Source: Chromatiaceae bacterium (GTDB lineage: Bacteria; Pseudomonadota; Gammaproteobacteria; Chromatiales; Chromatiaceae). From it: a stretch of 64,000 bases of DNA. The stretch covers positions 1 to 64,000 of the forward strand of contig JALWWO010000007.1 in the NCBI GenBank assembly GCA_027078745.1. The letters are read 5' to 3'. Under the pieces are notes generated by a model. It was not told where the DNA came from. It worked only from the letters and a program-made list of their open reading frames with translations, and made no database searches. Shown one piece after another: positions 9,866-29,949 of the stretch. Positions within the stretch are counted from its first letter, which is position 1; every line of letters begins with the position of its first letter. A program made the position numbers and the translations under genes.

Positions 9866-11186
9866 GATGACCACTATTCTCATCGTAGAAGATGATCCCA
9901 CCCTGGGCGAGGTGCTCCAGATGCAGATCGAAGATCTGGGCTACCAACCCCAGCTGGTCACCAGCTTGCAAGCCGCGCGGCAAGCCTTGGAACAGACTTG
10001 TCCCGGGCTGATCCTGTTGGATCAGCAGCTTCCCGACGGCGCGGGGCTGGATCTCTTGGAAGAGATGGCCGATCGCCCCTGCATGCCGCCAGTCATCCTG
10101 ATCACCGGCATGCGCGACACCGACCTAGCGATCTTGGCCATGAAAGCGGGTGCCTATGATTTCATCCGCAAGCCCATGGATGTGGACGCGCTGAACCGCA
10201 CCATAGAAACCGTGCTCCGCAGCCAGCGGGCCATGCGCCCGGTTGGCGTCAAGGAGGTCCAGCCGGCAGGCATGATCGGCAACAGTCCTGCCATCACCGC
10301 CGTGGCCAAGACCATCGGCCGAGTGGCGCAGACCAACGCCACTGTGCTTATCACGGGAGAATCCGGCACCGGCAAAGAGGTGGCCGCTCGGGCCATTCAC
10401 AAGCACAGCGGCCGCAAGGGTGCGTTCGTGGCCATCAACTGCTCTGCCATCGTGGAAACCCTCTTGGAGAGCGAATTGTTCGGCCATGAAAAGGGCAGCT
10501 TCACTGGCGCCAGCACTCGCAAGCTGGGCAAATTCGAGACCGCCCGAGATGGTACCCTATTTCTTGATGAGATCGGAGAATTGGCCCCTCGCCTGCAAGC
10601 GAAATTGCTGCGGGTGCTTCAGGAACAAAATTTCACGCGGGTCGGCGGCAACGAGCTGATCCAGACCAACGCCCGCATCCTCGCCGCCACCAATCAGGAT
10701 TTGGAAGCCATGGTGCGGGAAAAGACCTTTCGGGAAGACCTCTATTTCCGCCTCAACGTGATTCATCTCCATCTGCCCCCCCTGCGCGCACGGCGGGAAG
10801 ATCTGCCCGAACTGGTGGACCATCTCTTGGCGCGGGTTCAAGCCCAGGTGCACAAGCGCATCACCCACATCACCAAGGAAGCTTGGGCGAAGCTGCGGGA
10901 ATACCCTTGGCCGGGAAACATTCGAGAGTTGGAAAACGTCCTTCTGCGGGCGGTGATCCTGGCCCCGGGCCCTGTGCTGACTCAGGAGCTGTTTCAGCTG
11001 GATCCACCGGCGCAGCCCAGCGACGAAGCCGAAGTGCCGGAACTCATCAGTCTGGAGGAATTGGAACGCCGCCAGGTCAAGGCGATCCTGGAATACACCC
11101 GCTGGAACAAGGGCCGCGCCTGCGAGATTCTCGGCATCGCGCGACCCACCTTGGATCGGAAGATCGCTAAGTTCGGTTTGAATTAA
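9864..11186 (+). CDS. NtrC-family sigma-54-dependent response regulator
   Basis: Transcriptional activator that drives sigma-54 RNA polymerase after phosphorylation. The 440-residue product has a receiver domain with the acidic pair at 10-11 and phosphoacceptor Asp53 (LILLDQQLPDG). An AAA+ domain follows with Walker A GESGTGKE, a sigma-54 contact loop reading GSFTGA instead of the usual GAFTGA, and Walker B TLFLDEIGE. A Fis-type helix-turn-helix is at the C-terminus (NKGRACEILGIARPTLDRKIAKFGLN region). The open frame extends upstream to 9753, but the receiver fold begins MTTILIVEDD, so the start is 9864 or 9867. It is divergent from its presumed kinase with overlapping start codons. The candidate sigma-54 promoter at 2487 suggests cusCBA as target, which is inference. 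Confidence 0.93.
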   Translation: MMTTILIVEDDPTLGEVLQMQIEDLGYQPQLVTSLQAARQALEQTCPGLILLDQQLPDGAGLDLLEEMADRPCMPPVILITGMRDTDLAILAMKAGAYDFIRKPMDVDALNRTIETVLRSQRAMRPVGVKEVQPAGMIGNSPAITAVAKTIGRVAQTNATVLITGESGTGKEVAARAIHKHSGRKGAFVAINCSAIVETLLESELFGHEKGSFTGASTRKLGKFETARDGTLFLDEIGELAPRLQAKLLRVLQEQNFTRVGGNELIQTNARILAATNQDLEAMVREKTFREDLYFRLNVIHLHLPPLRARREDLPELVDHLLARVQAQVHKRITHITKEAWAKLREYPWPGNIRELENVLLRAVILAPGPVLTQELFQLDPPAQPSDEAEVPELISLEELERRQVKAILEYTRWNKGRACEILGIARPTLDRKIAKFGLN

Positions 11187-12087
11187 GGGAAGAAAGCGCT
11201 CCTTCTAAGCGATGCCAGATGGCATCCATGGCATCGGCTCGGCGGCATCGGAGCCGCAGGACGGGCAAGGCGGCGGCCAGATCGCTGGCCACGGCAAAGA
11301 GGCGGGGCGCCAAACTGGGATCCAGATTGACAAAGGGCGCGTTGCCGAGCAGACGGGCCACGGCTTGGGCGGGGGAAACCGGCTCGGCCCGCAAGTCCTG
11401 TCCCTGCTCCAGCAACACCAGCGCGGCCACCGGATAGTTCGCGCGGGCTTCTGGATGCCGCAGGGTGCGGCCGAACTCTCCGGTGAAGGGCACCACGTGG
11501 GCGCGGTAGCCTCGGGCATCGGGCAGGAGCAGATTCATATCATCGCTGAGCACCTGTGCGCCGGCTGCCTGAGCTTTCCGGCTCAAGGTGGTTTTGCCCG
11601 CATTGGAATAGCCTGAAAAGATCCAAGCAGTTCCCTGGCGCACCAGGCCTGCGCTGTGCAGCACCAGACCGCCGCCCCGCAGGGCTTGATGGGCGCAGAA
11701 CACCCGCAGGAAGTTTTCCAGCACGATGGGCTTGGGCAAGTCCTCCTCCCCATGCACGCCCAAACGGGCGGGCATCCGAGGGTCTAGGCTGATCTGGGCA
11801 TCGAAGTTGAAGCCCGTGAGCTGGAAGCAGTCGGGGGAAAGGGGCTGTTGCCGCATGGTATAGCAGCCGTCTCGGGTCAACTCTTCCTGACGGACGGCGG
11901 GCGGGGCGGGGAGGCGGTATGCTTCACAGCGGAAGCGGACCTCGCCCGCCGCGGCTACAAAGCTGGGATAGGTGACATCGATCGCCCGCCCCTGGGCTTC
12001 GCTTAAGCCTTCCAACCGCAGCGTGCCCAGGGGCAGGAAGAACCCCCGGGCTTCCCTGCCCCAGACGCCCTGTGGATGATCCCCCAT
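11167..12087 (-). CDS. HprK-like serine kinase domain protein, last gene of the C25 peptidase operon
   Basis: 306 residues related to the C-terminal domain of HPr kinase/phosphorylase. Visible motifs are LHSAGLV (His144), Walker A GYSNAGKTT (about 159-167) and VLSDDMNLL with Asp182-Asp183 at the catalytic acidic position. There is no HPr or PTS gene nearby and no N-terminal HprK domain, so it is not the classical regulator. Stand-alone HprK homologues are known in peptide-modification loci; in the paeninodin lasso peptide cluster one phosphorylates the C-terminal Ser of the precursor. The short peptide in this operon ends in Ser, which makes a similar role possible (inference). Its ATG directly abuts the TGA of the upstream gene (TGAATG), so translation is probably coupled. 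The 3' end overlaps the convergent regulator gene by 20 bases. Confidence 0.7.
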   Translation of the reverse strand: MGDHPQGVWGREARGFFLPLGTLRLEGLSEAQGRAIDVTYPSFVAAAGEVRFRCEAYRLPAPPAVRQEELTRDGCYTMRQQPLSPDCFQLTGFNFDAQISLDPRMPARLGVHGEEDLPKPIVLENFLRVFCAHQALRGGGLVLHSAGLVRQGTAWIFSGYSNAGKTTLSRKAQAAGAQVLSDDMNLLLPDARGYRAHVVPFTGEFGRTLRHPEARANYPVAALVLLEQGQDLRAEPVSPAQAVARLLGNAPFVNLDPSLAPRLFAVASDLAAALPVLRLRCRRADAMDAIWHRLEGALSSLNSNRT

Positions 12088-15000
12088 TCAGGGCAATACC
12101 AGTTTGAAAGGGCCATAGGTGCGCTGAGCACCGCGGGCTTCCTGTTCGATCAGCCGATACTCATAACTGCCCCGCTCTGCACCAGGATCGATCAGCTGAT
12201 ATTGTCCCCCTGCAGGAGCATCGATGAGCCCCGGGAGCATCTCTTCGTTGATCCGAATCCATCGGGAAGTCCCCACAGGGCGCCGTTCCACATAGAACCC
12301 CAGGGTACCCCGTTCTTCCAGGGTATCCCAGGACAATAGGGCGAGCTGTCCATCCCCGTCCGGATCCAGATAGGGCGACAGGGCTTGCACCAGGCTTGCC
12401 CGATCCCAGCCTTCCCCAATGCTCGGTGCCCAGCTCTGGAGCCATCGGGCGAGTTGGGCTTGGTCCAGGGAGTTGAGGAACTCTCGGAGGAGCACCGCTC
12501 GCAGCCGAACGGCCCCGATGGTCACGGCGGTGGGTCGGAAGTCGAATTGCACCTGGTAACCTTCCACTTCCCCATCCCGCAGGGCACCGCTCGATGCATT
12601 GACGCTCAGATTGGGATCTGAGCTGACGCGGAACCGCGCGTAGGTAGTGTATTGCTGATCTGTGGGGAGATTGTCCCACTGGAAGGTGCACAGATATTGA
12701 TCGTTCCCCTGATCGGTGCAATTCGTGCCGTTGACAGTCTTGCAGTCTCCATCACTGGATTGGAAACTGCCATCGGTGCCATCTGGCACATCTAACCAGC
12801 CGCAGACCTGAACTGCCCCGCCCGTTTTGTTGGTAACGGTTACATCCGCGAAGATGCTGTAATCAGGACCTTTAGAAGCGCGAAATGCCACACCGCTTTC
12901 ATCGTCATTGCCATCAGTATCATCTTCCGATTGAGTACCGGTTTCCGCATCCGGTTGCCCCGTGTTGTCCCCAATCCAAACCGCTGTGGGGGCCGGCGTT
13001 GTGAAATCCCCCACATGAGGCAATGCATGGGAAGCATCGCCATAACCGCTGGGCAAGTCATCGTAATCCTCACTGCCTAGATGCGGATGATCTTCCACTT
13101 CACCGAACCCGAGCGGAGCGGTGTTCGCATCGCTTGTGCTCATGCCGGTATCCGAACTGATGCGGAAGCGGGCGAAGGTATCCCCCACGGGGATATATTT
13201 GCCAGAGCCGGAGTTGTCCCAGGTAAAACTCACTGTACGGTCGGGGGATCCACTGTTGTCAGACACGGTAATACACTGACCTTCCGAGGCATCAAAGCTG
13301 CCATCTGCCAAGCCATCCGCCTGTGCTGAGCCGTCCAACCAACCGCAAATCTTGGCATCGCTGCCGGTGGTGTTGTTATAGGTTACGGTTGCAGTGATCT
13401 GTGAATAGTCCGCGCTGTAGCTGAATACCACGCTATTTTCATCGTCGCGCCCTTGGCTGTCGTCCCCACTGGCATCACCGCTATGTTGCATCCCCGGGTC
13501 GCCGTCTGCAGTGCCCTCTGTGTTCGGGCCGAGGAAGAGATTCGCGGACAGGGCATGAGAGGGCGCACCATAGGCTGAAGGGGAACCGGCAGGTGTGGCG
13601 CTGCCATCGGTTGGGGTATCGCCGTAATCGGTCAGGGGATCGTGATGAGTATCCGTTACCGGCGTCGTGATTTCAGCACTGGTCACACTGACACTGTTGT
13701 CGATCTTGACTGCGCTGGAATCCACCGGGTTATCCACCTGTACCTGAAAGGTGACGGTCATGAAATCACCGGGTTTCAGGCGGAATGCATCTGCGGCAAT
13801 GACCAAATTCGGCGGTGTGCCATTACTGAGATCCGCATTGCTTCCGCCTGGTTGATTGTCCTTCGTCATGGCGGCATAACCCTGCGTCACTGCGATGTCG
13901 AAATTATCGATGCGCAGATCTCTACTATTTCTTGTACTCGTTACCCGAAATCGAACCCGCGTGTTCTCAGCAGCATAGCTGCTGATATCGAAGGATTCCG
14001 AACCAGAAGTTGCATTGCCGGTATAGGTCTTCAAGGTCGTATAGCTCGTGCCGCCATCATCGGAGATTTCCAATACAATTGCACCGCCACCCAAATTTTC
14101 TTGATCGTAGTCGAACGTCAGGGATGCCGCCGTATAATCCGATAAATCCAACTCCCGATAGATATGATCTCCCGTGGTCTCTGCCTCCACCCGCAAGCAG
14201 AGGTTATTAGGCGTGGGACAATTGGAAACCGCTTCTACCTTGATGTTTTCTGATCCGCCAACACTATCCAGCTCTACCCAAGGGCCGCTGAACGACTGGG
14301 TCCCCGTGTTACCCGAATAGCCACCGGTCTCAAAATCGTCAGCAAAGTTTTCAGTTAGGGGCTGGATAGCAAACCCCTGGGCTAGGGTGCTCTGAGCTAC
14401 GTAAGTCGTATCATTGGGCAATCCATCGTTCACCACGATATCGGTCAGGGTATCCACCCCGATATTGGTCACTGTGATCGTATATTCGATCGTATCCCCC
14501 GCATCCACGGAGCTGGAAACATCGCTGGTCTTCTGCACTGCCATGGCGAACGGATCACTGGTATAGCCGAAATCGTTATCGGCATCGGTTTCGTTAGTTG
14601 GATCATTGGTGAAGCTGGCGGTTTGAGTGAAATGCGGTGGATTGGTGGTCTGGGTGGTGCCCGTCGGCAGGGTGTCGCTGTCGATCGCAAGGACAAAATT
14701 TCCAACGCCCGCATTGAAGCTGTAATTGCCACTGGTATCGGTAGTAGTGATGCCGCTCAGATGATCGCCGGCATCCACTTTGCCGTTATTGTTCGTATCT
14801 TCGTAGAGGCGCACGGTCACATTGGAAGCTCGGTTCGTTTCCCCGGCATCGAGCACGCCGTCCAGATCCGTATCCTCAAACACTGTGCCGCTGATGGTCT
14901 TGGTCCCCGGCCCGATGCCGAAATCATTGCCGGAATCCGTCGCGCCAAAAGTGGGCGAAGTGGAAGGAGGCACTGGAAATGCTGCGGTTTCCACATTGTC

Positions 15001-16191
15001 TGTGGTCATGGAATTGTTGGCGGGCAATGTGGAGAGCTTGAGCCGAACGACGAAGGGTCCCGCGGAGGCAGTCATGAAATCGTAGGTGCCCGGCACACCG
15101 CTGGTATCCACCCCATCGAAGCTGGTGATGGTGCCTGAATTACTGGTGGTCAGTTCTTGGACCAGAAAATCATCGCCGTCGATCACCCCGTTGTTGTTGA
15201 GATCTCGGAACAACTGCACAGTGACATTGGCCCAGCCGTTGCCGCCATCATCATTTCCATCCCGATTATTATCGAAGAATACCTTACCCTTGATGTGATT
15301 GGCCCCACCGGTGAGACAGGCCACGGATTCATAATCGCTCCTGCCGGACTGTGCCTCGATATCTAAAATGCGGGTTGCTTGCGCGGTAGCTAAATCGATT
15401 TCCCAGAAGGAATCATCAAAGCCATTGTTTGAACTGCTTCCCGTAGTGCCGTAAAAAACGCCGTTATTGTAGAAGCCAAGACCTTCCATATCGTTTACAT
15501 TATCACTGCCATTCCTGAATACACCGACATCCGTGACTTCTCCCGTGTTCTTATCGATCTTGACCAAATGATCCGATGACCCACCGTTATTGGCCACCCC
15601 ATACATCTGGCCATCTCTGGGATCGATGGCGATGTCGTCAATGTCATCGAGATTAGCGCTTCCAAATACCGCCTGGGTTTGGATCACCACATAATCTACC
15701 CCTGTCCCGAAAGCATCGGGAACATGGGCACCCGTCGCGCGATCGATGCGAAATAGCAGATCTTCACCGCTCTGCCGTTCTGTGCCATAGAAATAGCCGG
15801 TCAAAGCGTCAAAGGCCAACCCATCCACATCGCTGAAGGTTACGTTACCTTGTGCGCCGTTCCCCGTGCCAAAGGTGCTAGAGGTGGGAGTGAATGTGCC
15901 TGAACTCGTATTGAGAATACCTAACTGATTCGCATTGGCTGCGTATACGGTGGTGCCGTCCAGATAAAGGGCAGCGGATTCTATAGAGCTCGTTCCCGTT
16001 GGGCCAATATTGGTCCAACTCGATGCGACTCGGTCCACCTCCTCCAATTGGTCCCCGCTATCCGCCACCACATAGCAGATTGTAGAATCTGCCCTTGCTG
16101 GAAGAGGGTTGCCCAACAGCAGGATGAGCGCTAGAAACAATATGATGTTCTTTTGGTGCGGAGAACCTCGACGGGAACATTGATGCGTCAT
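12088..16191 (-). CDS. Large secreted multidomain protein with SdrD B-like, DUF11-like and GEVED domains
   Basis: About 1367 residues starting at MTHQCSRRG, chosen because GGAG lies 7 bases upstream; the longer frame to 16239 has no such site. A signal peptide (hydrophobic IILFLALILLLG, ending near PARADS) is followed by a propeller-like region of about 250 residues. Two SdrD B-like domains (GKVFFDNNRDGNDDGG; GTVFEDTDLDGVLDAGE) have Asp/Asn-rich probable calcium loops. A DUF11-like domain (DTIEYTITVTNIG), a beta-sandwich region and two GEVED domains (GEVEDHPHL; DGEVEGYQVQ) come next. The last roughly 150 residues contain an EF-hand-like LDPDGDGQL and a fibronectin-like segment nearly identical to that of the 18931-21474 product. 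Codon use is less G+C biased than in flanking genes. Exported adhesin or surface protein is the likely class; the specific role is unknown. Confidence 0.85.
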   Translation of the reverse strand: MTHQCSRRGSPHQKNIILFLALILLLGNPLPARADSTICYVVADSGDQLEEVDRVASSWTNIGPTGTSSIESAALYLDGTTVYAANANQLGILNTSSGTFTPTSSTFGTGNGAQGNVTFSDVDGLAFDALTGYFYGTERQSGEDLLFRIDRATGAHVPDAFGTGVDYVVIQTQAVFGSANLDDIDDIAIDPRDGQMYGVANNGGSSDHLVKIDKNTGEVTDVGVFRNGSDNVNDMEGLGFYNNGVFYGTTGSSSNNGFDDSFWEIDLATAQATRILDIEAQSGRSDYESVACLTGGANHIKGKVFFDNNRDGNDDGGNGWANVTVQLFRDLNNNGVIDGDDFLVQELTTSNSGTITSFDGVDTSGVPGTYDFMTASAGPFVVRLKLSTLPANNSMTTDNVETAAFPVPPSTSPTFGATDSGNDFGIGPGTKTISGTVFEDTDLDGVLDAGETNRASNVTVRLYEDTNNNGKVDAGDHLSGITTTDTSGNYSFNAGVGNFVLAIDSDTLPTGTTQTTNPPHFTQTASFTNDPTNETDADNDFGYTSDPFAMAVQKTSDVSSSVDAGDTIEYTITVTNIGVDTLTDIVVNDGLPNDTTYVAQSTLAQGFAIQPLTENFADDFETGGYSGNTGTQSFSGPWVELDSVGGSENIKVEAVSNCPTPNNLCLRVEAETTGDHIYRELDLSDYTAASLTFDYDQENLGGGAIVLEISDDGGTSYTTLKTYTGNATSGSESFDISSYAAENTRVRFRVTSTRNSRDLRIDNFDIAVTQGYAAMTKDNQPGGSNADLSNGTPPNLVIAADAFRLKPGDFMTVTFQVQVDNPVDSSAVKIDNSVSVTSAEITTPVTDTHHDPLTDYGDTPTDGSATPAGSPSAYGAPSHALSANLFLGPNTEGTADGDPGMQHSGDASGDDSQGRDDENSVVFSYSADYSQITATVTYNNTTGSDAKICGWLDGSAQADGLADGSFDASEGQCITVSDNSGSPDRTVSFTWDNSGSGKYIPVGDTFARFRISSDTGMSTSDANTAPLGFGEVEDHPHLGSEDYDDLPSGYGDASHALPHVGDFTTPAPTAVWIGDNTGQPDAETGTQSEDDTDGNDDESGVAFRASKGPDYSIFADVTVTNKTGGAVQVCGWLDVPDGTDGSFQSSDGDCKTVNGTNCTDQGNDQYLCTFQWDNLPTDQQYTTYARFRVSSDPNLSVNASSGALRDGEVEGYQVQFDFRPTAVTIGAVRLRAVLLREFLNSLDQAQLARWLQSWAPSIGEGWDRASLVQALSPYLDPDGDGQLALLSWDTLEERGTLGFYVERRPVGTSRWIRINEEMLPGLIDAPAGGQYQLIDPGAERGSYEYRLIEQEARGAQRTYGPFKLVLP
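12121..12576 (-). repeat. Copy 1 of a 456-bp near-identical C-terminal module
   Basis: Matches 18964-19419 with only four mismatches that I could count (two adjacent at the TAGGGCGACA/TAGGGCAGCA position, two single ones near 12491 and 12560) and no gaps. It encodes the shared C-terminal module of the two secreted proteins. Identity ends abruptly at both sides, including inside the GEVED coding sequence. This looks like recent duplication or gene conversion. Confidence 0.95.
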
Positions 16192-16298
16192 CAAAATACT
16201 CCAAAAAATCAAATGGGAACCCCCGCTCTTGGCGGGCATAGCATAATCAAGCGATTTTCTGCCAAGAGCTACCGTCGCTGCCCTCTCCTAGGCAACTC

Positions 16299-16484
16299 TC
16301 AGGAGCCAAGCCGAGCCGGGCTACAAGTGGGGACGCTTTTGCCAAAACCGCCCGTGCCCTTGCCATCACAGGTCGCCGCCGCCGCTTCTAAAGGTTCGCT
16401 GCTGAGGATCTGAGGCGGTTCATAGGGTCGTTTTCTCTTCTGGGATGCGGCCCGCTCTTCCCGGGTGTCTTGAATTGTTCGCAT
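16299..16484 (-). CDS. 61-residue two-cysteine peptide with RiPP-leader-like motif
   Basis: A short peptide whose translation is strongly supported: AAGGAG lies 7 bases before the ATG, and the gene sits about 20 bases after the peptidase stop codon in the same operon. The N-terminal half is charged (RTIQDTREERAASQKRKR). It is followed by PYEPPQILSSEPLEAAAATC and a Gly-rich tail with GTGGFGKS; cysteines are at 39 and 54, and the final residue is Ser61. The YxxPxI spacing resembles the YxxPxL leader motif recognised by RRE domains in lasso peptide precursors. No RRE/PqqD, lasso cyclase or radical SAM gene is in the operon, so the type of modification is open. A function as modified peptide, peptidase substrate or signal is inference; the existence of the gene is not in much doubt. 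Confidence 0.75.
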   Translation of the reverse strand: MRTIQDTREERAASQKRKRPYEPPQILSSEPLEAAAATCDGKGTGGFGKSVPTCSPARLGS

Positions 16485-16504
16485 GATTGTTCTCCTTCAC
16501 TGTA

Positions 16505-18934
16505 CTACCAGGCCAAAACGCTGGGATCCCCCACGATGCTGTAAATGTGCGGCATGTATTCGGAAAGGCGGCTCCGGTTCTCCTGCTCGCTCTGTACCAG
16601 GGCCTTGCCGATGGACTGGCCCCAGGTACCGAAGAGCGCATCCACAAAGCTGTTACTCAGGATCTGGGCTTCCCCGTCCAGGGATAAGCCGGTCGGCGCG
16701 AGAGAAGCGATGGCGCCCCCTTCGGGGTTGAGCACCAAAGCGCCGGCCAGGGAGCGAATGCCCGGTTGGGTATCGTCCGCCACCGCACAACTCAGCGCGG
16801 TGAACAGGGGATGGATGGCATTCTGCAAGCTTCCCGCTATGTTCGCATTGAGAAAATTCTCCTGATAGTTCCCGATCTGCGCGGCGGAACCGTGCCCGTC
16901 ATAGCTCAGATAACCCAGTTCCCAAGCATCGGATTGGGACAGGGTGCCGCTCACATCATCTTGGGGATGGTAGACTTTGGTCACCCGCTCGAAGCCCAGC
17001 CCGAACAGCCGGTCCGCCAGGGCATCGGAGTTGGTATGAAAATCTCCGCCATCGTCCGGATTGTCCGCAGCCAACAGGGCGGTTCTCCGCGCCGGCGCAC
17101 CCAAGGTTTCTTCCTGGGCGATCAGCTTTTCCACATAGGCCAAGCCTTCCGCATCATTGGTGATGGGAATGCGGCCGATGGCGAAGGGCAGGGGAGTCGC
17201 TCCACTTTCTTCCAGTCCCAACAAGCGTTCATCCGAAGCGGCGAGGGCCCAAGGGGTGCTGACCATGCGGATGGGTAAAAAGCTATCCCCATAGCCCATG
17301 CGATTTTTTTCGTCCAGGGTGCCCTTGCCGACGAGCATCACATATTCAGGAGCACCGTTTCGACGGCGAAACCGCTTCATAAAACGGCTCAGGGCGCTGG
17401 GATCTACGCGGCCGTAGCTGTAGCTGTTGTAGATGGCTTCCAACCAGACGATGGCCACTCGTCCGAAGCGGTTTTTCTCATAGTCAGCCAGGGCTTCGGC
17501 AGTGCTGGCAAAAGCCTTGGGGGCGATGATGAGATAATCCACAGGAAGCGCGATCAGGAGGGAAGCCGGACTGGGTTCGAAAGGATTGCCCATGAACAGG
17601 GGATCGTCCATGAAGTAGTCGGGCTCTATCCGATCATCCGGTGCGATCTCCGGTGTTTTGAGAGTATCCACCCCAACCACCAGATAATCAGCCCCTTCTT
17701 GGGCGCGGAAACTCACCTGCCAGCCTCCATCCACCGCTGGTTCCACCAGCACGTTTTCCAACAGGGCAGCCTGTCCCTCTGGATCCTGGATCACGAACAG
17801 ATCCTCTGTGGTCAGACCAGCGACCTGCTGGGTGCCGCCGCTGACCGCTCGCATCCAGAGTTGATTGTTCTGGGCGACGGAGAGGCGCTGATATTCCACA
17901 TCGATCGCATCGAGCCACTCCCCCGGATGAGTGCCCGGGGCATACTCGGTGGTCAGGACCAAGCGATGATTGCCATCGGGATTAAAGATCGCCTGATCCA
18001 CAGAGAATTGGATCTGGGCTTCCTCAAACCCATCCCAGACTGCACTGCCGCTGCCCAGGACTGCGCCGCTGTCCCCGTCAACGAGTTCTGCCAGAACCTG
18101 ATGATCGGGTCCCTCGATGAGATCCGTAAAACCGCGCAGGGTAACACGGATGTTTGCCGTGCCCGCCTCAGCGGGATAGGGGATCTGCAACGGGATTTCC
18201 AAGCGGTCCTTATACCCGCCGTAGAGATAATCCCAGAACCAATAATCCGCATCCGGTTCCTGAGCCACCGTCCAGGTGGAATAGCGCAGATCCGGTTCTT
18301 CCTCGAAGTGCAGATGTGCTGGGAAAGGTCGGGGCCCGCTGGCCGGTGCGGCCGGCGTGCCATCGATCCATTGCATTTCCCAAGCCTGCCCTTTCTGATC
18401 ACCCAGATGGAACAGATAAGCGTTGCGATCCGTGTAGAAGGTTTCGTATCGGGCGGCGGGAAAGAGGAAGGCATCTTCTGCTTCGTCCCAATACCAGGGA
18501 GCCAGCGCACCGCCTACCCGCAGGGAGATCTTTCCTTTGTCCGCATTTTCCCGCAGTTTTTCTTCCGTGGTGCCCAGGGCCGCTGCGAGGTCTGCGATGC
18601 CCACCCGATAGAGACCCGCCGCACCGGTGCGTAACCAGAGGGTGCGATTGTTTTTCGCCTTCTGCGTGACAGGCTGCGAGGATATCCGGTGCATCTGCCC
18701 CCGCAGCTGAACCGCCTGCAGCTTGCGTTCTGCGACGGGCAGATCCAGCTTTTTCGGAATCCGGCGGCGGGCAAGGTAGCCGCTGCCCAGAGGTTGCCAG
18801 GGGCTCCACTGGCCATCCAGATCCATGGGCAGGGCCTGAGTCGCGCCCGCAGGCGCACCGATGGCGAGCAGCAGACTGCTCAGGAGCAGGTTTTTCTTCA
18901 AAGAGAGGGTTACAGGATTGTCTGGAATTTTCAT
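16505..18934 (-). CDS. Secreted C25 (gingipain-like) cysteine peptidase
   Basis: 809 residues with a signal peptide (KKNLLLSSLLLAIGAPAGATQA). The N-terminal 450 or so residues are beta-rich, followed by a C25 peptidase domain. The catalytic dyad is visible as His681 in SYDGHGSAA and Cys716 in TALSCAVADD. The 35-residue spacing is like that of gingipain His211/Cys244. Family members cleave secreted proteins or, like PorU of the type IX secretion system, trim and attach C-terminal sorting domains. No type IX genes are seen here. Translation is coupled to the upstream gene by an ATGA overlap at 18931-18934. Its neighbours are two exported proteins with the same C-terminal module and a short peptide, so these are natural candidate substrates (inference). 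Confidence 0.9.
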   Translation of the reverse strand: MKIPDNPVTLSLKKNLLLSSLLLAIGAPAGATQALPMDLDGQWSPWQPLGSGYLARRRIPKKLDLPVAERKLQAVQLRGQMHRISSQPVTQKAKNNRTLWLRTGAAGLYRVGIADLAAALGTTEEKLRENADKGKISLRVGGALAPWYWDEAEDAFLFPAARYETFYTDRNAYLFHLGDQKGQAWEMQWIDGTPAAPASGPRPFPAHLHFEEEPDLRYSTWTVAQEPDADYWFWDYLYGGYKDRLEIPLQIPYPAEAGTANIRVTLRGFTDLIEGPDHQVLAELVDGDSGAVLGSGSAVWDGFEEAQIQFSVDQAIFNPDGNHRLVLTTEYAPGTHPGEWLDAIDVEYQRLSVAQNNQLWMRAVSGGTQQVAGLTTEDLFVIQDPEGQAALLENVLVEPAVDGGWQVSFRAQEGADYLVVGVDTLKTPEIAPDDRIEPDYFMDDPLFMGNPFEPSPASLLIALPVDYLIIAPKAFASTAEALADYEKNRFGRVAIVWLEAIYNSYSYGRVDPSALSRFMKRFRRRNGAPEYVMLVGKGTLDEKNRMGYGDSFLPIRMVSTPWALAASDERLLGLEESGATPLPFAIGRIPITNDAEGLAYVEKLIAQEETLGAPARRTALLAADNPDDGGDFHTNSDALADRLFGLGFERVTKVYHPQDDVSGTLSQSDAWELGYLSYDGHGSAAQIGNYQENFLNANIAGSLQNAIHPLFTALSCAVADDTQPGIRSLAGALVLNPEGGAIASLAPTGLSLDGEAQILSNSFVDALFGTWGQSIGKALVQSEQENRSRLSEYMPHIYSIVGDPSVLAW

Positions 18935-21474
18935 GGAAGTCTTACCTCAAAGGGCCCGTAGATGCGCTGAGCACCGCGGGCTTCCTGTTCGATCAGCCGA
19001 TACTCATAACTGCCCCGCTCTGCACCAGGATCGATCAGCTGATATTGTCCCCCTGCAGGAGCATCGATGAGCCCCGGGAGCATCTCTTCGTTGATCCGAA
19101 TCCATCGGGAAGTCCCCACAGGGCGCCGTTCCACATAGAACCCCAGGGTACCCCGTTCTTCCAGGGTATCCCAGGACAATAGGGCGAGCTGTCCATCCCC
19201 GTCCGGATCCAGATAGGGCAGCAGGGCTTGCACCAGGCTTGCCCGATCCCAGCCTTCCCCAATGCTCGGTGCCCAGCTCTGGAGCCATCGGGCGAGTTGG
19301 GCTTGGTCCAGGGAGTTGAGGAACTCTCGGAGGGGCACCGCTCGCAGCCGAACGGCCCCGATGGTCACGGCGGTGGGTCGGAAGTCGAATTGCACCTGGT
19401 AATCTTCCACTTCCCCATCGGGAGCAGTTCCGGTGGCATCAGCAGTGGTCAGAGCACCGGAAGTGACTCGGAAGCGGGCATAGGTGGTATAGGCTTGATC
19501 CGTGGGAAGATTGCTCCACTGCAAGGTGATGGTCTGTGTGCCGGGACTCACGGACTGGCAGATCCCATCGGCCGCATCGAACGCACCGTCCACCGTGCCG
19601 CCGGATGGTACATCCAACCAGCCGCAGAGAGTTACGTTAGCAGCGGTCGGATTCTGAACCACCACATCCGCGAAGATGCTGTGATTAGTGCCTGCGGGAG
19701 AACGGAAGCTGACCCCATCCTCATCATCCACTGCCGCAGTATCATCCCCTTCCGCATCGGTCGCGTTCTGGCTCCCCGTCTCCCGATCTCCCCGACGGTC
19801 TCCCAGATAGGGGCTGGGGATGCGATGAAAGGCCCAATAGGCGACTTGCTCAGTAATATGCCAACGTTCTGAGTCCCCGATCTGATCCTCATCTACGGCC
19901 AGATCGAGTCGGCCGCCGCTGATCGGGTTGGTCCCATACAATACTGCCCAACTGCCATTGCCGCCATCCATCGCGGACTGAGTTGCTACGGCAAAATCAT
20001 AGGTGCTGGAACTACTCGTGCTGAGGAGATAGCTATAAGGGGGCGCATTATCCACCCCTTGCACTGTATCACCTCCGAGCGCAGCAATATATCGCACATT
20101 CCCAAAGCTGCCGCTGCCCTGTTCCACGACGATATAGCCCAAGGTCTCATCAGCGCGGGTCGTATTAGTGTCTTCCCCCACATGCTTGCCGATACAGAGG
20201 CTGGTCGCGGTGGGTGGATGATTCCTACTGCCGCACTCACTGCTCCAAAACACACTCCAATTCGGATCGTTGAAGGTCATGACCTGACCCAATACCACCG
20301 GCGTGGTATAATTCCCGAGGATGGTTGCAGATTCTCCGACCCAACTTCCCGTATTGTCCGTTACACTGGATTTTTGTTTATGCGCCTCGAACTGCCGGCC
20401 ATCGGGCAGACTGTGATAGCCGGATTCCGCCACTAGGCAACGGACGGTCGAAGCAGTTACCGCGCTGCCATTGCCTGGGTTCTGCAACCGTACCTCAAAA
20501 CCGGTCGAGGCAGCATTTCTCACCCGTACCACGGCGGGCGCATTTCCCGTCGTATAAAGATTACTCGTGCACACCACCACGGGATCAATATACGCATTGT
20601 TCAGGAACACAGTTTGCCAGCGTTCATCCACATTGGGGACCGTGACCCATTCCAACAAAGGCGTGTCGTTCAGATTATGACTTGCGCTGCCATAACTCGC
20701 TGGGGCATCGTCGTACTCCCGCGCTATATTGTCGTCAGCTAGATTACCCGTCCAGGATAGATCACCGATGCCGGCAATCTGCCCGTCGTTAAAGGGATTG
20801 TCGGACTCACAATAGGTGATCTCGATGCGATCGACTAATTCTGCATAATGAATCTCGACATTTCCCCGGGTTTCCGTTGGACCTGCGTTAGCCTGGATTC
20901 CCGTCAGGCACAGACCGTTCCCGAACTCGTTCTGGATATCTGTACAAGTGTATTCCGTAACTCCGGCCGGGGTGCCTAGCTGAACAGTCGGGTTCGGGTC
21001 GACAATGGTTGCCGTGCCCTGGACTAAAGCACCTCGATAGGTCGCCCTTACCAGAACCATGTCGCGCCACCGGTTATAATCGATATCGAGCAAAGGAAAC
21101 TGCAGACCTGAAACCGCCGGTGAAAAACGAAAGATTGCGCGCGTGCATTCCGTATTACCTCCCCTGGCACCACTGATTGAATCCATGGTTAGGAACAGGA
21201 ATCCCATCTCATTGCCCAGTGTTGCATTGAGGGTTCTAAAATAGACGTTATAATAGGGATGCGGCCAGGGCATAGGATAATCCGGAAAGGCATAATCAAT
21301 GGTGATGCCTACGCCATCCTGGGTAAAAGCATCCGTGGGCGGATTGCCATAATTCCCGCTATCCACCGTAGCGGTGATAACTTCGCTGTACCAAATGAGA
21401 TCACCTGCTGCTGCCTGTCCCTCTCGGTAAAGGGATAACAGCGCGATCCATAGAATCAGGAGATTTCTCGCCAT
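18931..21474 (-). CDS. Secreted GEVED-domain protein, first gene of the C25 peptidase operon
   Basis: 847 residues starting MARNLLILWIALLSL, a signal peptide ending near GQAAAG. TAGGAACA stands in front of the ATG. The N-terminal region (about 25-250) is a beta-rich domain with paired Cys that I do not recognise. The centre (about 280-560) repeats Trp/Gly-rich beta strands such as WQTVFLNNAYIDPVVVCTS and GYIVVEQGSGSFGNVRYIA. A GEVED domain follows (DGEVEDYQVQ). The final module is nearly identical to that of the 12088-16191 product. It is the promoter-proximal gene of the operon; an AT-rich block (TATATA near 21505-21512) lies upstream, but no convincing -35 element was found. Exported, cell-surface or released protein is likely; molecular function is unknown. 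Confidence 0.8.
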   Translation of the reverse strand: MARNLLILWIALLSLYREGQAAAGDLIWYSEVITATVDSGNYGNPPTDAFTQDGVGITIDYAFPDYPMPWPHPYYNVYFRTLNATLGNEMGFLFLTMDSISGARGGNTECTRAIFRFSPAVSGLQFPLLDIDYNRWRDMVLVRATYRGALVQGTATIVDPNPTVQLGTPAGVTEYTCTDIQNEFGNGLCLTGIQANAGPTETRGNVEIHYAELVDRIEITYCESDNPFNDGQIAGIGDLSWTGNLADDNIAREYDDAPASYGSASHNLNDTPLLEWVTVPNVDERWQTVFLNNAYIDPVVVCTSNLYTTGNAPAVVRVRNAASTGFEVRLQNPGNGSAVTASTVRCLVAESGYHSLPDGRQFEAHKQKSSVTDNTGSWVGESATILGNYTTPVVLGQVMTFNDPNWSVFWSSECGSRNHPPTATSLCIGKHVGEDTNTTRADETLGYIVVEQGSGSFGNVRYIAALGGDTVQGVDNAPPYSYLLSTSSSSTYDFAVATQSAMDGGNGSWAVLYGTNPISGGRLDLAVDEDQIGDSERWHITEQVAYWAFHRIPSPYLGDRRGDRETGSQNATDAEGDDTAAVDDEDGVSFRSPAGTNHSIFADVVVQNPTAANVTLCGWLDVPSGGTVDGAFDAADGICQSVSPGTQTITLQWSNLPTDQAYTTYARFRVTSGALTTADATGTAPDGEVEDYQVQFDFRPTAVTIGAVRLRAVPLREFLNSLDQAQLARWLQSWAPSIGEGWDRASLVQALLPYLDPDGDGQLALLSWDTLEERGTLGFYVERRPVGTSRWIRINEEMLPGLIDAPAGGQYQLIDPGAERGSYEYRLIEQEARGAQRIYGPFEVRLP
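18964..19419 (-). repeat. Copy 2 of the 456-bp near-identical C-terminal module
   Basis: Partner of 12121-12576 at a constant offset of 6843 bases. Both copies lie at the 3' end of a secreted-protein gene in the same orientation. Recombination between them would delete the peptidase and peptide genes and fuse the two secreted proteins. Confidence 0.95.
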
Positions 21475-25219: not shown

Positions 25220-26281
25220 CTACTTCCAATCCAGAAAACTGCCCGGTGCATGGGGAGGCAAGGGAATGCTGAGCTGGGCGATGGGATCGACCGGTGTTGT
25301 CAGCCAGGGGAAAGGGTTCTCGGTCTCCTTGTAAAGGGGCGGGCAATCGATCTGAGATAACAGCTCATTGGTGAGATAGCGCAGGTACTGCCGAAATTTG
25401 AGCAGCTCCGAGGAGGAAAGGGCCTCCTGGGCATAGTGCAGAGTGCGCGACAAAACAGCCTGCTCTAAGAAATCCCTCTCTGGCTTCCAAGCCTGAGGGC
25501 GCAGCAGCGCGATGCCGAAATCCCGATGCCCCTGAAGATCCTGCAAGATCCGCTGGAACAGGGTGGCGATGCCGGAGAATTCCAGGCGGCGGGCGATGAG
25601 CAAGGGGGCTAAGAGGGCAGCCGGACATAGGAGGCTCTTGAGGATAAGGAAAAACCCCTCCTGTTCCCGCTGCACCGAGGAGGATTCTGCCTGGGCCAGT
25701 TCCAGATAGGTTTCCATCCAAGCGAAGAGGGGCGGCATCTCGGCCGGTGCTTCCGCCTCGCCTAGCTGTTCCAGGGCATAGCGGCCCGCTTCCGCAGCTA
25801 GGCTTTCTTCAAAGGCTTGGCGCAATAGATAGGCGCGGCAGGCAGGTTCCTCCGTCTGCTGATACACCCCTAGGGTCAAAGGCGTGATGAGCTGATTCCA
25901 ACAAGTTAAGACCTGCAAAGCTTCTCGGAGAAAGCTTCGTTCCGCTTCTGTGCCGGTCGCACCCGCTGCCCAGCGTTTCCGATCCATACCCAAGGAAATC
26001 TGAGCCGGATGCCAGGAACGGGCACAGCTCTGGACATAGAGTTTCCGCGCCCAATGGCGTTCTGGCTCTTCCGGTACCTCGATGACCTCCGGCTCCGGTG
26101 GCGGCTGTTGCACCCGAAAGGGCGAATGGGCGCGGGGCTGCCAGGGACTTTCCCTAGGACTGGACGCCACCGTTGCTCGTTTATTTTTTTCGGAGGCTGC
26201 CGGCGGAGATGCCGGCTTCTTCGGCACAGCTTTGCGGAAGGATCCCAGGGGATCTTCCCAATCCGAAGGCACTTCGCTCAT
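25220..26281 (-). CDS. Ribonucleotide reductase small-subunit (NrdB) homologue lacking most cofactor ligands
   Basis: 353 residues. After a Pro-rich N-terminal 70 residues it aligns by eye with proteobacterial/chlamydial NrdB: RSWHPAQISL, CRAYLLRQAFEES, FQRILQDLQGHRDFGIALL, FRQYLRYLTNELLSQI and ENPFPW. Relative to E. coli NrdB the ligand positions read D84 to Trp128, E115 kept as Glu159, H118 to Ala162, E204 to about Cys219/Pro220, E238 to Leu249 and H241 kept as His252. The radical Tyr122 position is Gly166. The C-terminal Tyr/Glu tail used in radical transfer is also not evident. It should not assemble a normal di-metal/tyrosyl radical cofactor. Its ATG overlaps the nrdA stop (ATGA), so it is made together with NrdA. 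A true NrdB may lie elsewhere; this may be a scaffold or regulatory paralogue, or a decaying copy. Confidence 0.72.
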   Translation of the reverse strand: MSEVPSDWEDPLGSFRKAVPKKPASPPAASEKNKRATVASSPRESPWQPRAHSPFRVQQPPPEPEVIEVPEEPERHWARKLYVQSCARSWHPAQISLGMDRKRWAAGATGTEAERSFLREALQVLTCWNQLITPLTLGVYQQTEEPACRAYLLRQAFEESLAAEAGRYALEQLGEAEAPAEMPPLFAWMETYLELAQAESSSVQREQEGFFLILKSLLCPAALLAPLLIARRLEFSGIATLFQRILQDLQGHRDFGIALLRPQAWKPERDFLEQAVLSRTLHYAQEALSSSELLKFRQYLRYLTNELLSQIDCPPLYKETENPFPWLTTPVDPIAQLSIPLPPHAPGSFLDWK

Positions 26282-29200
26282 TGACAGGCCTCGCATTCTG
26301 GATCCAGGATGGAACAAACTTGGGCCTGCTCCAATCCGAGACCTCGGCTGCTTCTCAAACTGCCGCCGCGCTGCCACCGCCGTGGATCCAGGGTCTTTTC
26401 CACATGAGTCGCCCCCATAGACCGCAAGTAATAGGTGGTCTTCAGCCCCCGCACCCAAGCGAGTTTATAGAGTTGGTCCATCTTTTTGCCGCTCGGCTCT
26501 GGCATATACAGGTTGAGACTCTGAGCTTGATCAATCCATTTTTGTCGGCGGGCAGCGGCTTCCACCAACCACCGGGGATCGATCTCAAAGGCTGTGGCAT
26601 AGCGCACTTTGAGGTGCTGGGGAATGCGGTCAATCTGCTGCACAGAACCGTCGTAATACTTGAGATCCTCCACCATAGTCAGATCCCAAAGCCCCAGCTT
26701 CTTCAGATCCGCTACCAGATAGGGATTCACGATGGTGAATTCTCCAGAGAGATTGGATTTCACGAAGAGATTTCGATAGATGGGCTCGATGGACTGACTC
26801 ACTCCCGTGAGATTGGAGATGGTGGCGGTGGGGGCGATGGCCATGCAGTTGGAATTCCGCATACCCACCCGCTGGACCCGTTCCCGCAACGCATCCCAAT
26901 CCAGGGTGCGGCTGCGATCCAATCTGAGATACCCGCCCCGCTCTCGTTCCAACCGTTCGATGGAATCAATGGGCAGGATACCCTGACTCCACAGGCTGCC
27001 TTCAAAGCTGGAATAAGGCCCTCGCTCCTCCGCCAGATCCACAGAGGCGGAGATGGCTTCATAGGAGAGGAGTTCCATACTCCGATCCGCGAACTCCACT
27101 GCCTCCATGCTGGCATAGGGGATGCCCAGGCGGTACAGGGCATCTTGAAAGCCCATGAGCCCCAGCCCCACGGGACGATGGCGCAGATTGGCATTCCGCG
27201 CCTGGGGCACATTGTAGAAGTTGTAATCGATCACATTGTCCAGCATCCGCATGGCGGTGCGCACCGTGCGCCGGAGCTTCTGCCGATCGATGCCCTGATC
27301 GCCGAGATGGTTCACCAGATTGACGGAACCCAGATTGCAGACGGCGATTTCCTCGCGGTTGGTGTGCAAAGTGATCTCGGTGCAGAGGTTCGAGGAATGG
27401 ACCACCCCCACATGCTGATTGGTATAGCGGAGATTGCAGGGATCCTTGAAGGTGATCCAGGGATGACCGGTTTCAAAGAGCAGGCTCAGCATCTTGCGCC
27501 ATAGGTTCACCGCCTGCACCCGCTTGTGGATTCGGATCTCCCCCCGCGCTGCCTTTGCTTCATAGGCGAGATAGGCCCGTTCAAAGGCCTGGCCGGTGAG
27601 CTCATGGAGATCCGGCGTTTCATCCGGAGAAAACAGGGTCCAATGGCTTTCCTCCGCCAACCGTTTCATGAAGAGATCCGGCACCCAATTCGCCGTGTTT
27701 ATGTCGTGGGTGCGGCGTCGCTCGTCGCCGGTGTTCTTGCGCAGCTCTAGGAACTCCTCGATATCGATGTGCCAGATCTCCAGATAGACGCAGACGGCTC
27801 CCTTGCGCTTGCCCCCGTTGTGGGCCAATGCTGAGGTGGTCATGTAGGAGGCATCTCCCTCGACCTTTAGGTCGAAGACGAAGGGCACCGAGTTGATCTC
27901 CCGTACATCGCGCACCCGGGTGAAGAGCCAGTTTTTCCAGAGCAACCAGTTTTGCTTGTGGATGGGTTGGCAGCCCAGCCGTTCCGCCAGGGCTTTCACC
28001 GCGGGAATGAGTAGATCATAGGCTTTGCAAGTCCCGTCGAAACGGTTCTCGGTGCTATCCGTGCGGATGCCTTTGGGATGCGGTTCCCGTTCGCGGTGCT
28101 GGCCGGCGCAAGGCACCCCCAGGCGCAACAGCTGGTAGCGGACGCCCTCAGCCAGGGGCTGGGAAGTGGTGGTGAAGCGGATTTCCTTGCCCCGGCGAAT
28201 GTTCCCGTCGGTTTCGAGCAAACCCTGGATCAGCGCTCGGGTCTGGCCGGGAGGCAGATGGGCATATTTGCGATGGATGCGTTTGTTGCCCTGGGCATCG
28301 TAGAGTGCCTCACGTTCGAAAAGAAAGCCCCGCTGGTTGCTCCGAATCCGCTGCCCCGTGGTGGCCTCCCTGGCGAGGTCTACATCGGTTGCCCAGCCGA
28401 TCTGCAAGCAGTTGGGACGGACCTGCTTGCTCCAATAAGGGAGGCCCCGTTTTTCCAGATAGTGTCGCACGAAGGCTAAGTGTTCGTCCTTCTCTGGATC
28501 GCCGGATACACCCCATTCCAGTCCAGCCTCGGTGCAATGGCCCGCCCCCAGCAAAATGCCGTAGAGGCGGGCATCCTCTTCGTCGAAGCCAGGTACCGGA
28601 ACCGTTTCCTGGGGAATCACCTGGGCGACATAGTCGCCCTTTTTCAACTGGCCGGCTTCCACCCAGCGGGGTTGGACCTTGCCCTTCTCTAGCCCGTCAT
28701 AACTGCATGCGTTGGCCTGTTCCGGCGGTATCCCCTGGATTGCCCAGAGCGGATGACCGGCGGTAACCCGCAAGGGGCTGATGGCATGTGCGATCCGGAT
28801 TTCCACCATGGGATCGCGCTGGTTGTAGACCAAGCGTTCGCGCACAGCTCGGTAGATTCCTCGCTGCCCCAGGACCAGATCGCCCTGCTCGATCTCCTGA
28901 ATGGGTTTGATGCCGTCGGCGGTGTACACCAGGGTATCCCCGGCGAAGCACTGGTTCACTGCTACCGCCGTATCGTTGACCACCTTGAGGAAGGGCACCA
29001 CCCCTTGGCTCTTGCCGTTGGTGCCCTTGATGTGCGCACCCATGCCGCGAACAGGGGTCCAGTCGTTGCCCAAGCCACCGGCAAACTTGGAGAGCAAAGC
29101 ATTGTCTTTGATGGCGTCGTAGATGCCCTTCAGATCGTCGGGCACCGTGGTGAGGTAGCAAGAACTGAGTTGGGGGCGCAGGGTGCCGGAATTGAATAGA

Positions 29201-29949
29201 GTCGGCGTGGAGGTCATGAAATCGAATCCGGAGAGCAGTTCGTAGAATTCGATAGCGCGTTCCTCGCGCTCGACCTCGTTGAGGGCCAGACCCATGGCCA
29301 CGCGCATGAAAAGGGCTTGAGGCAGCTCGAACCGGGTACCGTCTGCGGTGTGGATGAAATAACGGTCGTAGAGGGTTTGCAGGCCCAGATAGGTGAATTG
29401 GAAATCCCGCTGGGGTTGCAGGGCAGCCCCCAGGCGGTGCAGGTCGAACTGGGCGAGGCGGGGATCGAGCAGTTTCAGCTGAATTCCCTGATGGATGTAG
29501 CGGTGAAAATACTCGCTGTAACGTGCAGCCAAGTCCGCCTGGGTTTCAACCTGCCAGTCAGGTGCGAGAAAACCCAGGACCTCCCGCCGCAGACGGTCCA
29601 GCAGCAGGCGGGCGGCCACTTGGCTATATTGGGGTTCCTGCTCAATGCGGGTGCGGGCACTCATCACTAGGGCGTGCCGCACTTCCGATTCTCGCACCCC
29701 GTCGAAGAGATAGCGCAGGCTGTCTTTCAACACCTGCTCGGCGGATACCGCTTCCAGGCCCTGGCAGGCCTCCCGAACGAGTCGTTCCAATCGGGCGAGA
29801 TCTAAGGGGCGATGCTGACCATCCTCCCCTGCTACCAGAACAGACGGCTGCAGCAGTACCTGCGGTAGGACATCGGTTCTTTCCAACGGATCTAGAGTCG
29901 ATTGAGCGTTTGAATCCAAGGAGATCGATTCCATGGACGACATACACAT
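26278..29949 (-). CDS. nrdA: Class I ribonucleoside-diphosphate reductase large subunit, intein-containing
   Basis: Reduces ribonucleotides to deoxyribonucleotides. The start at 29949 (MCMSSMES) is chosen for GGGAAG 9 bases upstream; the frame is open to 30042. The product is 1223 residues, 845 without the intein. An ATP-cone occupies about 35-125. Active-site elements are intact: first Cys in QLSSCYL, NLCTEI with the thiyl-radical Cys, VCNLGS, the TTYYLR tyrosine pair for radical transfer, and the C-terminal ECEACQ redox pair. A Hint/homing endonuclease element of 378 codons (27817-28950) splits VAVNQ from GGKRKG. The gene is coupled by ATGA to the degenerate small-subunit homologue, an odd partner because NrdA retains everything needed to accept a radical from NrdB. 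Confidence 0.93.
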   Translation of the reverse strand: MCMSSMESISLDSNAQSTLDPLERTDVLPQVLLQPSVLVAGEDGQHRPLDLARLERLVREACQGLEAVSAEQVLKDSLRYLFDGVRESEVRHALVMSARTRIEQEPQYSQVAARLLLDRLRREVLGFLAPDWQVETQADLAARYSEYFHRYIHQGIQLKLLDPRLAQFDLHRLGAALQPQRDFQFTYLGLQTLYDRYFIHTADGTRFELPQALFMRVAMGLALNEVEREERAIEFYELLSGFDFMTSTPTLFNSGTLRPQLSSCYLTTVPDDLKGIYDAIKDNALLSKFAGGLGNDWTPVRGMGAHIKGTNGKSQGVVPFLKVVNDTAVAVNQCFAGDTLVYTADGIKPIQEIEQGDLVLGQRGIYRAVRERLVYNQRDPMVEIRIAHAISPLRVTAGHPLWAIQGIPPEQANACSYDGLEKGKVQPRWVEAGQLKKGDYVAQVIPQETVPVPGFDEEDARLYGILLGAGHCTEAGLEWGVSGDPEKDEHLAFVRHYLEKRGLPYWSKQVRPNCLQIGWATDVDLAREATTGQRIRSNQRGFLFEREALYDAQGNKRIHRKYAHLPPGQTRALIQGLLETDGNIRRGKEIRFTTTSQPLAEGVRYQLLRLGVPCAGQHREREPHPKGIRTDSTENRFDGTCKAYDLLIPAVKALAERLGCQPIHKQNWLLWKNWLFTRVRDVREINSVPFVFDLKVEGDASYMTTSALAHNGGKRKGAVCVYLEIWHIDIEEFLELRKNTGDERRRTHDINTANWVPDLFMKRLAEESHWTLFSPDETPDLHELTGQAFERAYLAYEAKAARGEIRIHKRVQAVNLWRKMLSLLFETGHPWITFKDPCNLRYTNQHVGVVHSSNLCTEITLHTNREEIAVCNLGSVNLVNHLGDQGIDRQKLRRTVRTAMRMLDNVIDYNFYNVPQARNANLRHRPVGLGLMGFQDALYRLGIPYASMEAVEFADRSMELLSYEAISASVDLAEERGPYSSFEGSLWSQGILPIDSIERLERERGGYLRLDRSRTLDWDALRERVQRVGMRNSNCMAIAPTATISNLTGVSQSIEPIYRNLFVKSNLSGEFTIVNPYLVADLKKLGLWDLTMVEDLKYYDGSVQQIDRIPQHLKVRYATAFEIDPRWLVEAAARRQKWIDQAQSLNLYMPEPSGKKMDQLYKLAWVRGLKTTYYLRSMGATHVEKTLDPRRWQRGGSLRSSRGLGLEQAQVCSILDPECEACQ
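27817..28950 (-). mobile_element. Intein in NrdA with degenerate LAGLIDADG endonuclease and Gly at +1
   Basis: 378 codons from Cys1 (CFAGDTLVYTADGIKP, block A) to the terminal His-Asn (TSALAHN, block G). Block B is TAGHPLWAI with the TxxH motif. The endonuclease region has YGILLGAGHC, where the first LAGLIDADG acidic residue is Ala, and LIQGLLETDGNI, where it is intact. DNA cleavage is therefore probably lost. The residue after the terminal Asn is Gly (HN/GGKRKG), confirmed at the codon level (CAC AAC GGG). Ordinary inteins need Cys, Ser or Thr at +1. Other NrdA proteins of this group read straight through NQGGKRKG, so the boundaries are well placed. Splicing may be atypical or replaced by cleavage. 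Confidence 0.9.

Follow-up and report, generated by a model that had tools for sequence, protein, structure and literature searches.

What is encoded by the small reading frame that lies between a C25 (PorU/gingipain-type) peptidase gene and the gene of a DUF11 protein in this Chromatiaceae genome, and what is done to its product? The frame belongs to the window, by which we mean the whole stretch of 64,000 nucleotides that was analysed. An earlier sequence-only reading had described a 61-residue peptide starting with ATG, with AAGGAG 7 bases upstream, and carrying Tyr21, Pro24, Cys39, Cys54 and Ser61; all of these are where that reading placed them (Table 1). From the comparisons given here we conclude that the peptide is a real gene product, confirming the original observation, and that it is very probably the precursor of a little-known bacterial modified peptide, on which a kinase, a radical enzyme and a peptidase would act.

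Table 1. Features of the peptide locus in the window (RRE motif, leader and core as predicted).
Feature	Position	Strand	Remarks
Putative precursor peptide (A)	16299..16484	-	61 aa ORF, ATG start; sequence MRTIQDTREERAASQKRKRPYEPPQILSSEPLEAAAATCDGKGTGGFGKSVPTCSPARLGS
Ribosome-binding site AAGGAG	16492..16497	-	Read directly; 7 bases before ATG
Predicted RRE-binding motif of the leader, Y21-L27 (YEPPQIL)	16404..16424	-	From column counts
Predicted leader, residues 1-36	16377..16484	-	From Ala36 in 22/22 and the spacing of linear polyphosphorylated peptides (LPP)
Predicted core ATCDGKGTGGFGKSVPTCSPARLGS with Cys39, Cys54 and C-terminal Ser61	16302..16376	-	Boundary predicted
HprK/PEPCK-fold kinase (K)	11167..12087	-	Same strand as peptide
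DUF11 protein with shared C-terminal domain, probably secreted	12088..16239	-	
C25 (PorU/gingipain-type) peptidase, probably exported	16505..18934	-	
GEVED protein, same C-terminal domain as DUF11 protein, probably secreted	18931..21474	-	

The peptide gene stands in a same-strand run with the order GEVED protein, C25 peptidase, peptide, DUF11 protein and kinase. The first two genes overlap by 4 bases, C25 and peptide are separated by 20 bases and peptide and DUF11 gene by 59, and there is no gap between the DUF11 and kinase genes; judged from this spacing the run is likely one operon. A scan of the locus for promoters and terminators gave sites no more numerous than in shuffled sequence. The genome holds a single copy of the peptide (at E 10 or better). 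Moreover, a Pfam and NCBIfam scan of 17 precursors of the family returned no match at E 1, so that annotation by those libraries would leave them nameless.

Relatives were sought by separate searches with the peptide and its neighbours. In 92 genomes (the genome of the window and its relatives), searched whole with C25 and with the peptide, C25 matched in four (own, G035, G006 and G029) and the peptide in 43 at E 1. Outside the own genome, the only peptide matches better than 0.018 were those in G029 (E 1.9e-6) and G035 (E 1.3e-3); both adjoin the C25 gene, and both genomes are among the three that have C25 besides our own. In the third, G006, a more diverged copy was found by reading at the same place beside C25. 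The remaining matches were treated as chance. The coincidence of peptide and C25 in these genomes is more than chance. Among 369 genomes of the class, strong matches to the peptide (E 5.5e-7 or better) and to the kinase (E 1.1e-47 or better) each occur in six, and the six are the same. Weaker matches to the peptide (G396, E 0.0012; G070, E 0.0058; each with an internal stop) and to the kinase (G287, E 7.6e-11; G352, E 1.2e-10) fall in different genomes. Scanning genome contigs with the kinase alignment gave ten loci, all with a PqqD-type RRE, a radical SAM enzyme and a family peptide (nine by profile and that of L039 by reading); as the kinase was the bait, its own presence there is by construction. 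Three of these loci coincide with those of G035, G006 and G029. The ten come from MAGs of Halioglobus, Thiolapillus, Thiodictyon, Sedimenticola, Chromatiaceae and a gammaproteobacterium, and from two Solemya symbionts. Lastly, the peptide was present in 15 of 210 genomes of the family, namely our own, nine that fit known loci and five new ones (L095-L099).

In total, we identified 22 precursors in 22 loci of Gammaproteobacteria, the window included and two from one genome (G113), with Solemya gill symbionts and MAGs of Sedimenticola, Thiolapillus, Thiodictyon and Halioglobus as the named hosts. Peptide starts were taken at a plausible ATG; by a mechanical rule, five of the 22 frames start further upstream. 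A sample of 398 genomes of the phylum, some of which are also in that of the class, yielded no additional cassette: the peptide matched there in none but the own genome, G461 and G481, and the kinase in none but the own genome and, with weak matches, G422 and G665. The sequence-only reading had staked its case on homologous loci keeping both the peptide and its marked residues, and this is what the loci show.

The most constant residue of the core is its last: Ser ends all 22 precursors. Counting from the predicted cleavage site, Ala at -1, Glu at -4 and Glu at -7 are likewise present in 22/22. Position -16 (Tyr21) is Tyr in 17 precursors and Trp in five, and Pro is at -13 (Pro24) in 21, L099 having its Pro one place earlier; [YW]xxP is accordingly kept in 21/22. 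Cys at core position 3 (Cys39) is found in 21, with L098 carrying it at core 4, and every core has two or more Cys. The comparison therefore bears out the proposed RiPP-type leader with its RRE motif. This pattern was drawn from 17 precursors; a profile of those seventeen brought in the other five, which are hence no blind test. Some independence is nevertheless given by the extent of the matches. An 11-row profile found six loci, and in four of them (G380, G282, G166 and G241) the match stopped at 47-52 of 58, before the C-terminus, so the terminal Ser was no part of the finding; it is nonetheless present. The match of the 17-row profile to L098 similarly stopped at position 53 of 60. As background, 12 of 199 non-overlapping mechanical ORFs of at least 150 aa end in Ser (fraction 0.0603). 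Grouped at 60% likeness, the 17 cores fall into 10 clusters, which are not fully independent.

Between its two kept ends the core is variable, with a length of 19-32 residues in the 17 measured. Two Solemya-symbiont peptides are identical over the 16 residues at the end of the leader and have cores only 0.53 alike, and there are two pairs with identical leader ends and differing cores. A short precursor with a conserved leader and a variable core, as is expected of an RRE-dependent RiPP, is therefore seen throughout the 22. In close pairs of relatives dN is well below dS (L095-L097, 0.13 and 1.19; L095-L096, 0.20 and 1.44; Sedimenticola pairs, 0.015-0.09 and 0.08-0.95; the two Solemya symbionts, 0.26 and 0.55); for the window peptide against its relatives, dS has reached saturation. 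In the cores as listed, the last residue is the only Ser or Thr that is invariant. Therefore, the single conserved kinase target, if there is one, is Ser61, which suggests phosphorylation of the paeninodin kind, although conservation of the terminal Ser could also have some other cause.

Two matches in the phylum sample, outside the class of the window, deserve separate mention (L077 and L078; G481:C1:2838878 and G461:C22:7225). Each is a tiny ORF ending KKAYQKPVLLKRERLSAVTA[V/A]CTPSTCPV that keeps the leader spacing and a Cys at the corresponding position, is shorter and is without the terminal Ser. It is perhaps another RiPP precursor.

Gene content was determined by tblastn at E 1e-3 over the 22 loci, with the window assessed separately. 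A kinase is linked in 20/22 (all save L067 and L099), which upholds the association with an HprK-like kinase that had been noted on the same strand in the window. The RRE and the radical SAM enzyme are each linked in 19/22. The pair is missing in the window, L067 and L099, L067 having an RRE without the radical SAM enzyme, and L068 has a radical SAM enzyme without an RRE. A signal-peptidase-like gene is linked in 16/22. Five loci were found with no bait but the peptide, and in four of them kinase, RRE and radical SAM enzyme are all present.

On contig C7, which carries the window, there is no match to the PqqD family or to the radical SAM enzyme of the cassettes; a UPF0004-type radical SAM gene (61645-62922), 45 kb away, is of another kind. 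To this extent the statement that no RRE or radical SAM gene is nearby stands, but it does not hold for the relatives, which carry both beside the peptide. Moreover, the own genome has the two together on another contig (RRE, C18:53476-53673; radical SAM, C18:53696-54646), followed by what by eye is a glutaredoxin-like ORF, and this radical SAM enzyme is 62% identical to that of Halioglobus. Therefore the proposed class with a kinase and neither RRE nor radical SAM enzyme was rejected. In both the own genome and L069, PF05402 is matched over its cut-off beside the radical SAM/SPASM gene, so that an RRE is encoded with modifying enzymes as in RRE-dependent RiPP systems. As a separate observation, one genome (G113) has two different precursors in two partial cassettes near contig ends (L066 and L067). 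Oligopeptide-type ABC transporter ATPase genes lie beside the cassettes L095, L097 and L098, from three genomes of one genus, and this may be merely shared gene order.

The radical SAM enzymes have CxxxCxxC and three further Cys invariant in 16/16, and a SPASM match was obtained in all three that were scanned. Among their best NCBIfam matches are the mycofactocin and PqqE maturases, all under the cut-offs, and PADLOC gave only viperin-profile matches, for this same enzyme. Maturase matches of this sort, together with a discrete PqqD-type RRE gene directly preceding the radical SAM gene, would also fit a redox-cofactor precursor like those of PQQ and mycofactocin, from which RRE and SPASM enzyme would make a small cofactor out of a few core residues, kinase and C25 being accessory. 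We think this unlikely, given cores of the length and variability described and a gene set that includes both a kinase and a C25 protease.

For the kinase, the best NCBIfam match is ScmC, below its cut-off, and the same is the best match for all four kinases scanned. Sequence comparison with solved structures gave weak, mostly P-loop matches, and a model was therefore made with AlphaFold2 (mean pLDDT 89.5). The model matched PEPCK 1oen at E 9e-8 and the HprK/P structures 3tqf and 1kkl at E 6.6e-5 and 9.4e-5; against PEPCK 2pc9 it aligned over 259 residues with Z 15.3 and rmsd 4.4. The modelled fold is thus nearest to PEPCK, with HprK/P next, and has the fold and P-loop of the HPr kinase/PEPCK superfamily. 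H144, K165, D182 and D183 are invariant in 10/10 aligned kinases and correspond, matched by order, to the His-Lys-Asp-Asp set reported as needed in lasso-peptide kinases, for which phosphorylation of the C-terminal Ser of the precursor is also reported (PMC9266682). The kinases of paeninodin-type lasso clusters, PadeK and ThcoK, share this set and a precursor ending in Ser. A lasso peptide of that type would account for the terminal Ser, the HprK-like kinase and the RRE, and for the NTP_transf_5 gene seen in the four loci examined for it (G035, L069, L070 and L098); however, a radical SAM enzyme is present, and a reading of L069 from one housekeeping border to the other recognised no macrolactam synthetase (lasso cyclase) and no B2 peptidase. 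Hence we regard a lasso product as very improbable.

In L069 the set has clear bounds: between rpsF, rplI and dnaB on one side and a phosphoesterase gene on the other lie the genes of the signal-peptidase-like protein, the kinase, the RRE, the radical SAM enzyme, the peptide, C25 and the NTP transferase. The NTP_transf_5 gene of the own genome (C2:113485) has no cassette gene beside it in the 17 kb read. The signal-peptidase-like proteins match the archaeal-type signal peptidase family under its cut-off, and their profile matches SEC11A (E 9e-7) and Staphylococcus SpsB constructs. Cys25, His62, Asp78 and Asp84 are invariant in 16/16, with GxCMxP around the Cys. Cys25 aligns with a Ser of SEC11A in 7p2p, which we take to be the catalytic Ser, and with Ala in 9rjb and 4wvg, presumably mutants of it. 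As judged by this alignment, the family has Cys in place of the catalytic Ser; such A7 proteins (16) occur in L039, L069, L095 and other cassettes, and a search of the open-licence literature by title found no report of Cys-type signal-peptidase-like proteins. The only candidate in the own genome (C18:132118) has GCSMQP, with Ser at the nucleophile place, and no aligned Asp, and so may not belong to the system of the peptide.

The closest known system is that of the linear polyphosphorylated peptides, described from the lpp cluster of Paenibacillus alginolyticus (Nat Commun 2026, PMC13381572). Clusters of this kind, which that report describes as restricted to Bacillota, encode a signal-peptidase-like leader peptidase, an RRE, an HprK-like kinase, an NTP transferase and an MsbA-like transporter, and their precursors have the motif YxxPxVLxHQxIxFETxxS with Tyr at -16, Leu at -10, Thr at -1 and a core Ser3 that is polyphosphorylated; the RRE leader motif is given as [Y/W]xxPx[L/V/I/F/A] (PMC13381572). 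With Tyr21 of the window peptide set at -16, the other positions follow without a gap, Pro24 falling at -13, Leu27 at -10, Ala36 at -1 and Cys39 at +3, and cleavage after Ala36 is therefore predicted. The two systems share the discrete RRE and the kinase with the precursor (the RRE being unlinked in the own genome), the signal-peptidase-like peptidase, NTP_transf_5 in the four loci named, the [Y/W]xxP leader at equal distance from the cleavage site with the Y21-L27 motif of the same form, and polysaccharide-type genes beside some loci (L025, L039 and L098 here). In contrast, our family has the SPASM radical SAM enzyme and C25 protease in addition, Glu at -7 and -4, Ala for Thr at -1, Cys for the phosphorylated Ser at +3 and an invariant terminal Ser, and is found in Gammaproteobacteria. 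Its peptidases carry Cys25 with His62 and Asp84 in 16/16, whereas LppS needs Ser29, His68 and Asp93 (PMC13381572). No MsbA-like gene or dedicated exporter was noticed in the ORF list between the borders of L069. By the features tested, the family would be neither LPP nor a shown lasso peptide, and appears like both in leader recognition and kinase use.

A third comparison is with the SynChlorMet cassette (ScmC, ScmE and ScmF), which likewise sets PqqD-type and radical SAM/SPASM genes beside a kinase whose family is the best match of ours. Scores to ScmC, ScmE and ScmF are far under the cut-offs, however, and our cassettes have one radical SAM enzyme rather than two, with C25 added. We know of no identified precursor for SynChlorMet, and the present family offers a candidate precursor type for ScmC-like cassettes.

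The C25 peptidase adjoins the peptide in 18 of the 19 loci whose flank is long enough, some running into a contig end. In L096 no more than a short C25-like stretch could be read, and L040, L044 and L071 end too soon to judge. The protein of the window matches Pfam PF01364 (E 9.9e-49), and His681 and Cys716, which we take to be the catalytic pair, are invariant in 5/5 aligned. It shares the domain and this His and Cys with PorU and the gingipains, but reaches only 136.6 bits against the PorU model NF033707 (NCBIfam), whose cut-off is 420. Comparison with solved structures gave no relative at E 0.001, and its structure model was poor (mean pLDDT 57.5) and went unused. The DUF11 and GEVED proteins of the window share 77% identity across their last 260 residues, and the final 150 are almost the same in both; the shared C-terminal domain also ends a Halioglobus neighbour and precedes C25 in proteins of G035 and G029. 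C25 and most of these proteins have N-termini that by eye are hydrophobic, and C25, GEVED and DUF11 proteins are probably exported or secreted. A side observation is that the C-terminal domains of the two window proteins contain a 300-base direct repeat (12107-12406 and 18950-19249; 98%), the result of recent duplication or gene conversion in two otherwise different proteins.

Such constancy would suit a small protein that serves C25 as inhibitor, chaperone or substrate, with the RiPP genes as incidental neighbours, the more so as in the window C25 and kinase accompany the peptide, RRE and radical SAM being encoded elsewhere, and as L099 has C25 and peptide without other cassette genes, on a contig of 5.9 kb. 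Against this, the most conserved part of the peptide is an RRE-type leader motif, and kinase and peptide co-occur in independent searches; a role confined to C25 is thus quite unlikely. For a RiPP precursor, the plain reading of C25 is that it may process the peptide outside the cell. A bolder proposal, which we hold to be unlikely, is that C25 acts as a sortase-like transpeptidase. It would attach the peptide, once phosphorylated, modified by the radical SAM enzyme and freed from its leader by the Cys-type signal-peptidase relative, to polysaccharide or to surface proteins of the exported GEVED/CTD kind: a covalent surface decoration by a RiPP, outside any type IX secretion system.

Taken together, we favour, with a probability of about 0.76, a RiPP precursor whose leader would be bound by a PqqD-type RRE and whose core would be presented to an HprK-like kinase and a SPASM radical SAM enzyme. 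Motif and gene partnership suggest that the discrete RRE binds residues 1-36 through Y21xxP24. The kinase would then most likely phosphorylate Ser61, and the radical SAM enzyme perhaps acts at Cys39 and Cys54. In the relatives, by analogy with the LPP system, the signal-peptidase-like protease (Cys, His, Asp) probably cuts after Ala36, and the probably exported C25 and GEVED or DUF11 proteins may process the product or serve as its carriers outside the cell. In the own genome precursor and kinase would be encoded in one operon and RRE and radical SAM enzyme in another. Several points sit uneasily with this reading. The LPP kinase acts on core Ser3, which here is Cys39, so that the target would have moved or the kinase have another role; the cassette peptidases have Cys where LppS needs Ser29; the bounded L069 cassette has no exporter of its own that we noticed; and L067, L068, L096 and L099 are without one or more cassette genes on the DNA covered.

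In summary, this is a real and unnamed family of RiPP precursors whose cassette we did not find in the open-licence papers searched. Judged by title and the start of the abstract, the papers listed there include none that combines kinase, SPASM enzyme and C25; nor did the searches give one on SynChlorMet, on HprK with radical SAM and a precursor peptide, or on Solemya with radical SAM and a peptide. Gene content suggests a relative of the phosphorylated RiPPs that has gained a radical SAM enzyme, a peptidase of the Cys type and a C25 protease that is probably exported. An HprK-like kinase and a SPASM radical SAM enzyme would here share one precursor, with a C25 protease beside them, and the theme of phosphorylated RiPPs would be carried from Bacillota to Gammaproteobacteria, including the Solemya symbionts. 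The cassettes also bring to light a family of signal-peptidase-like proteins in which Cys replaces the catalytic Ser. Elsewhere in the window, the gene of the large subunit of ribonucleotide reductase (26278-30042, minus strand) has an in-frame insertion that matches LAGLIDADG_3, with Hint_2 under its cut-off, and that is probably an intein.
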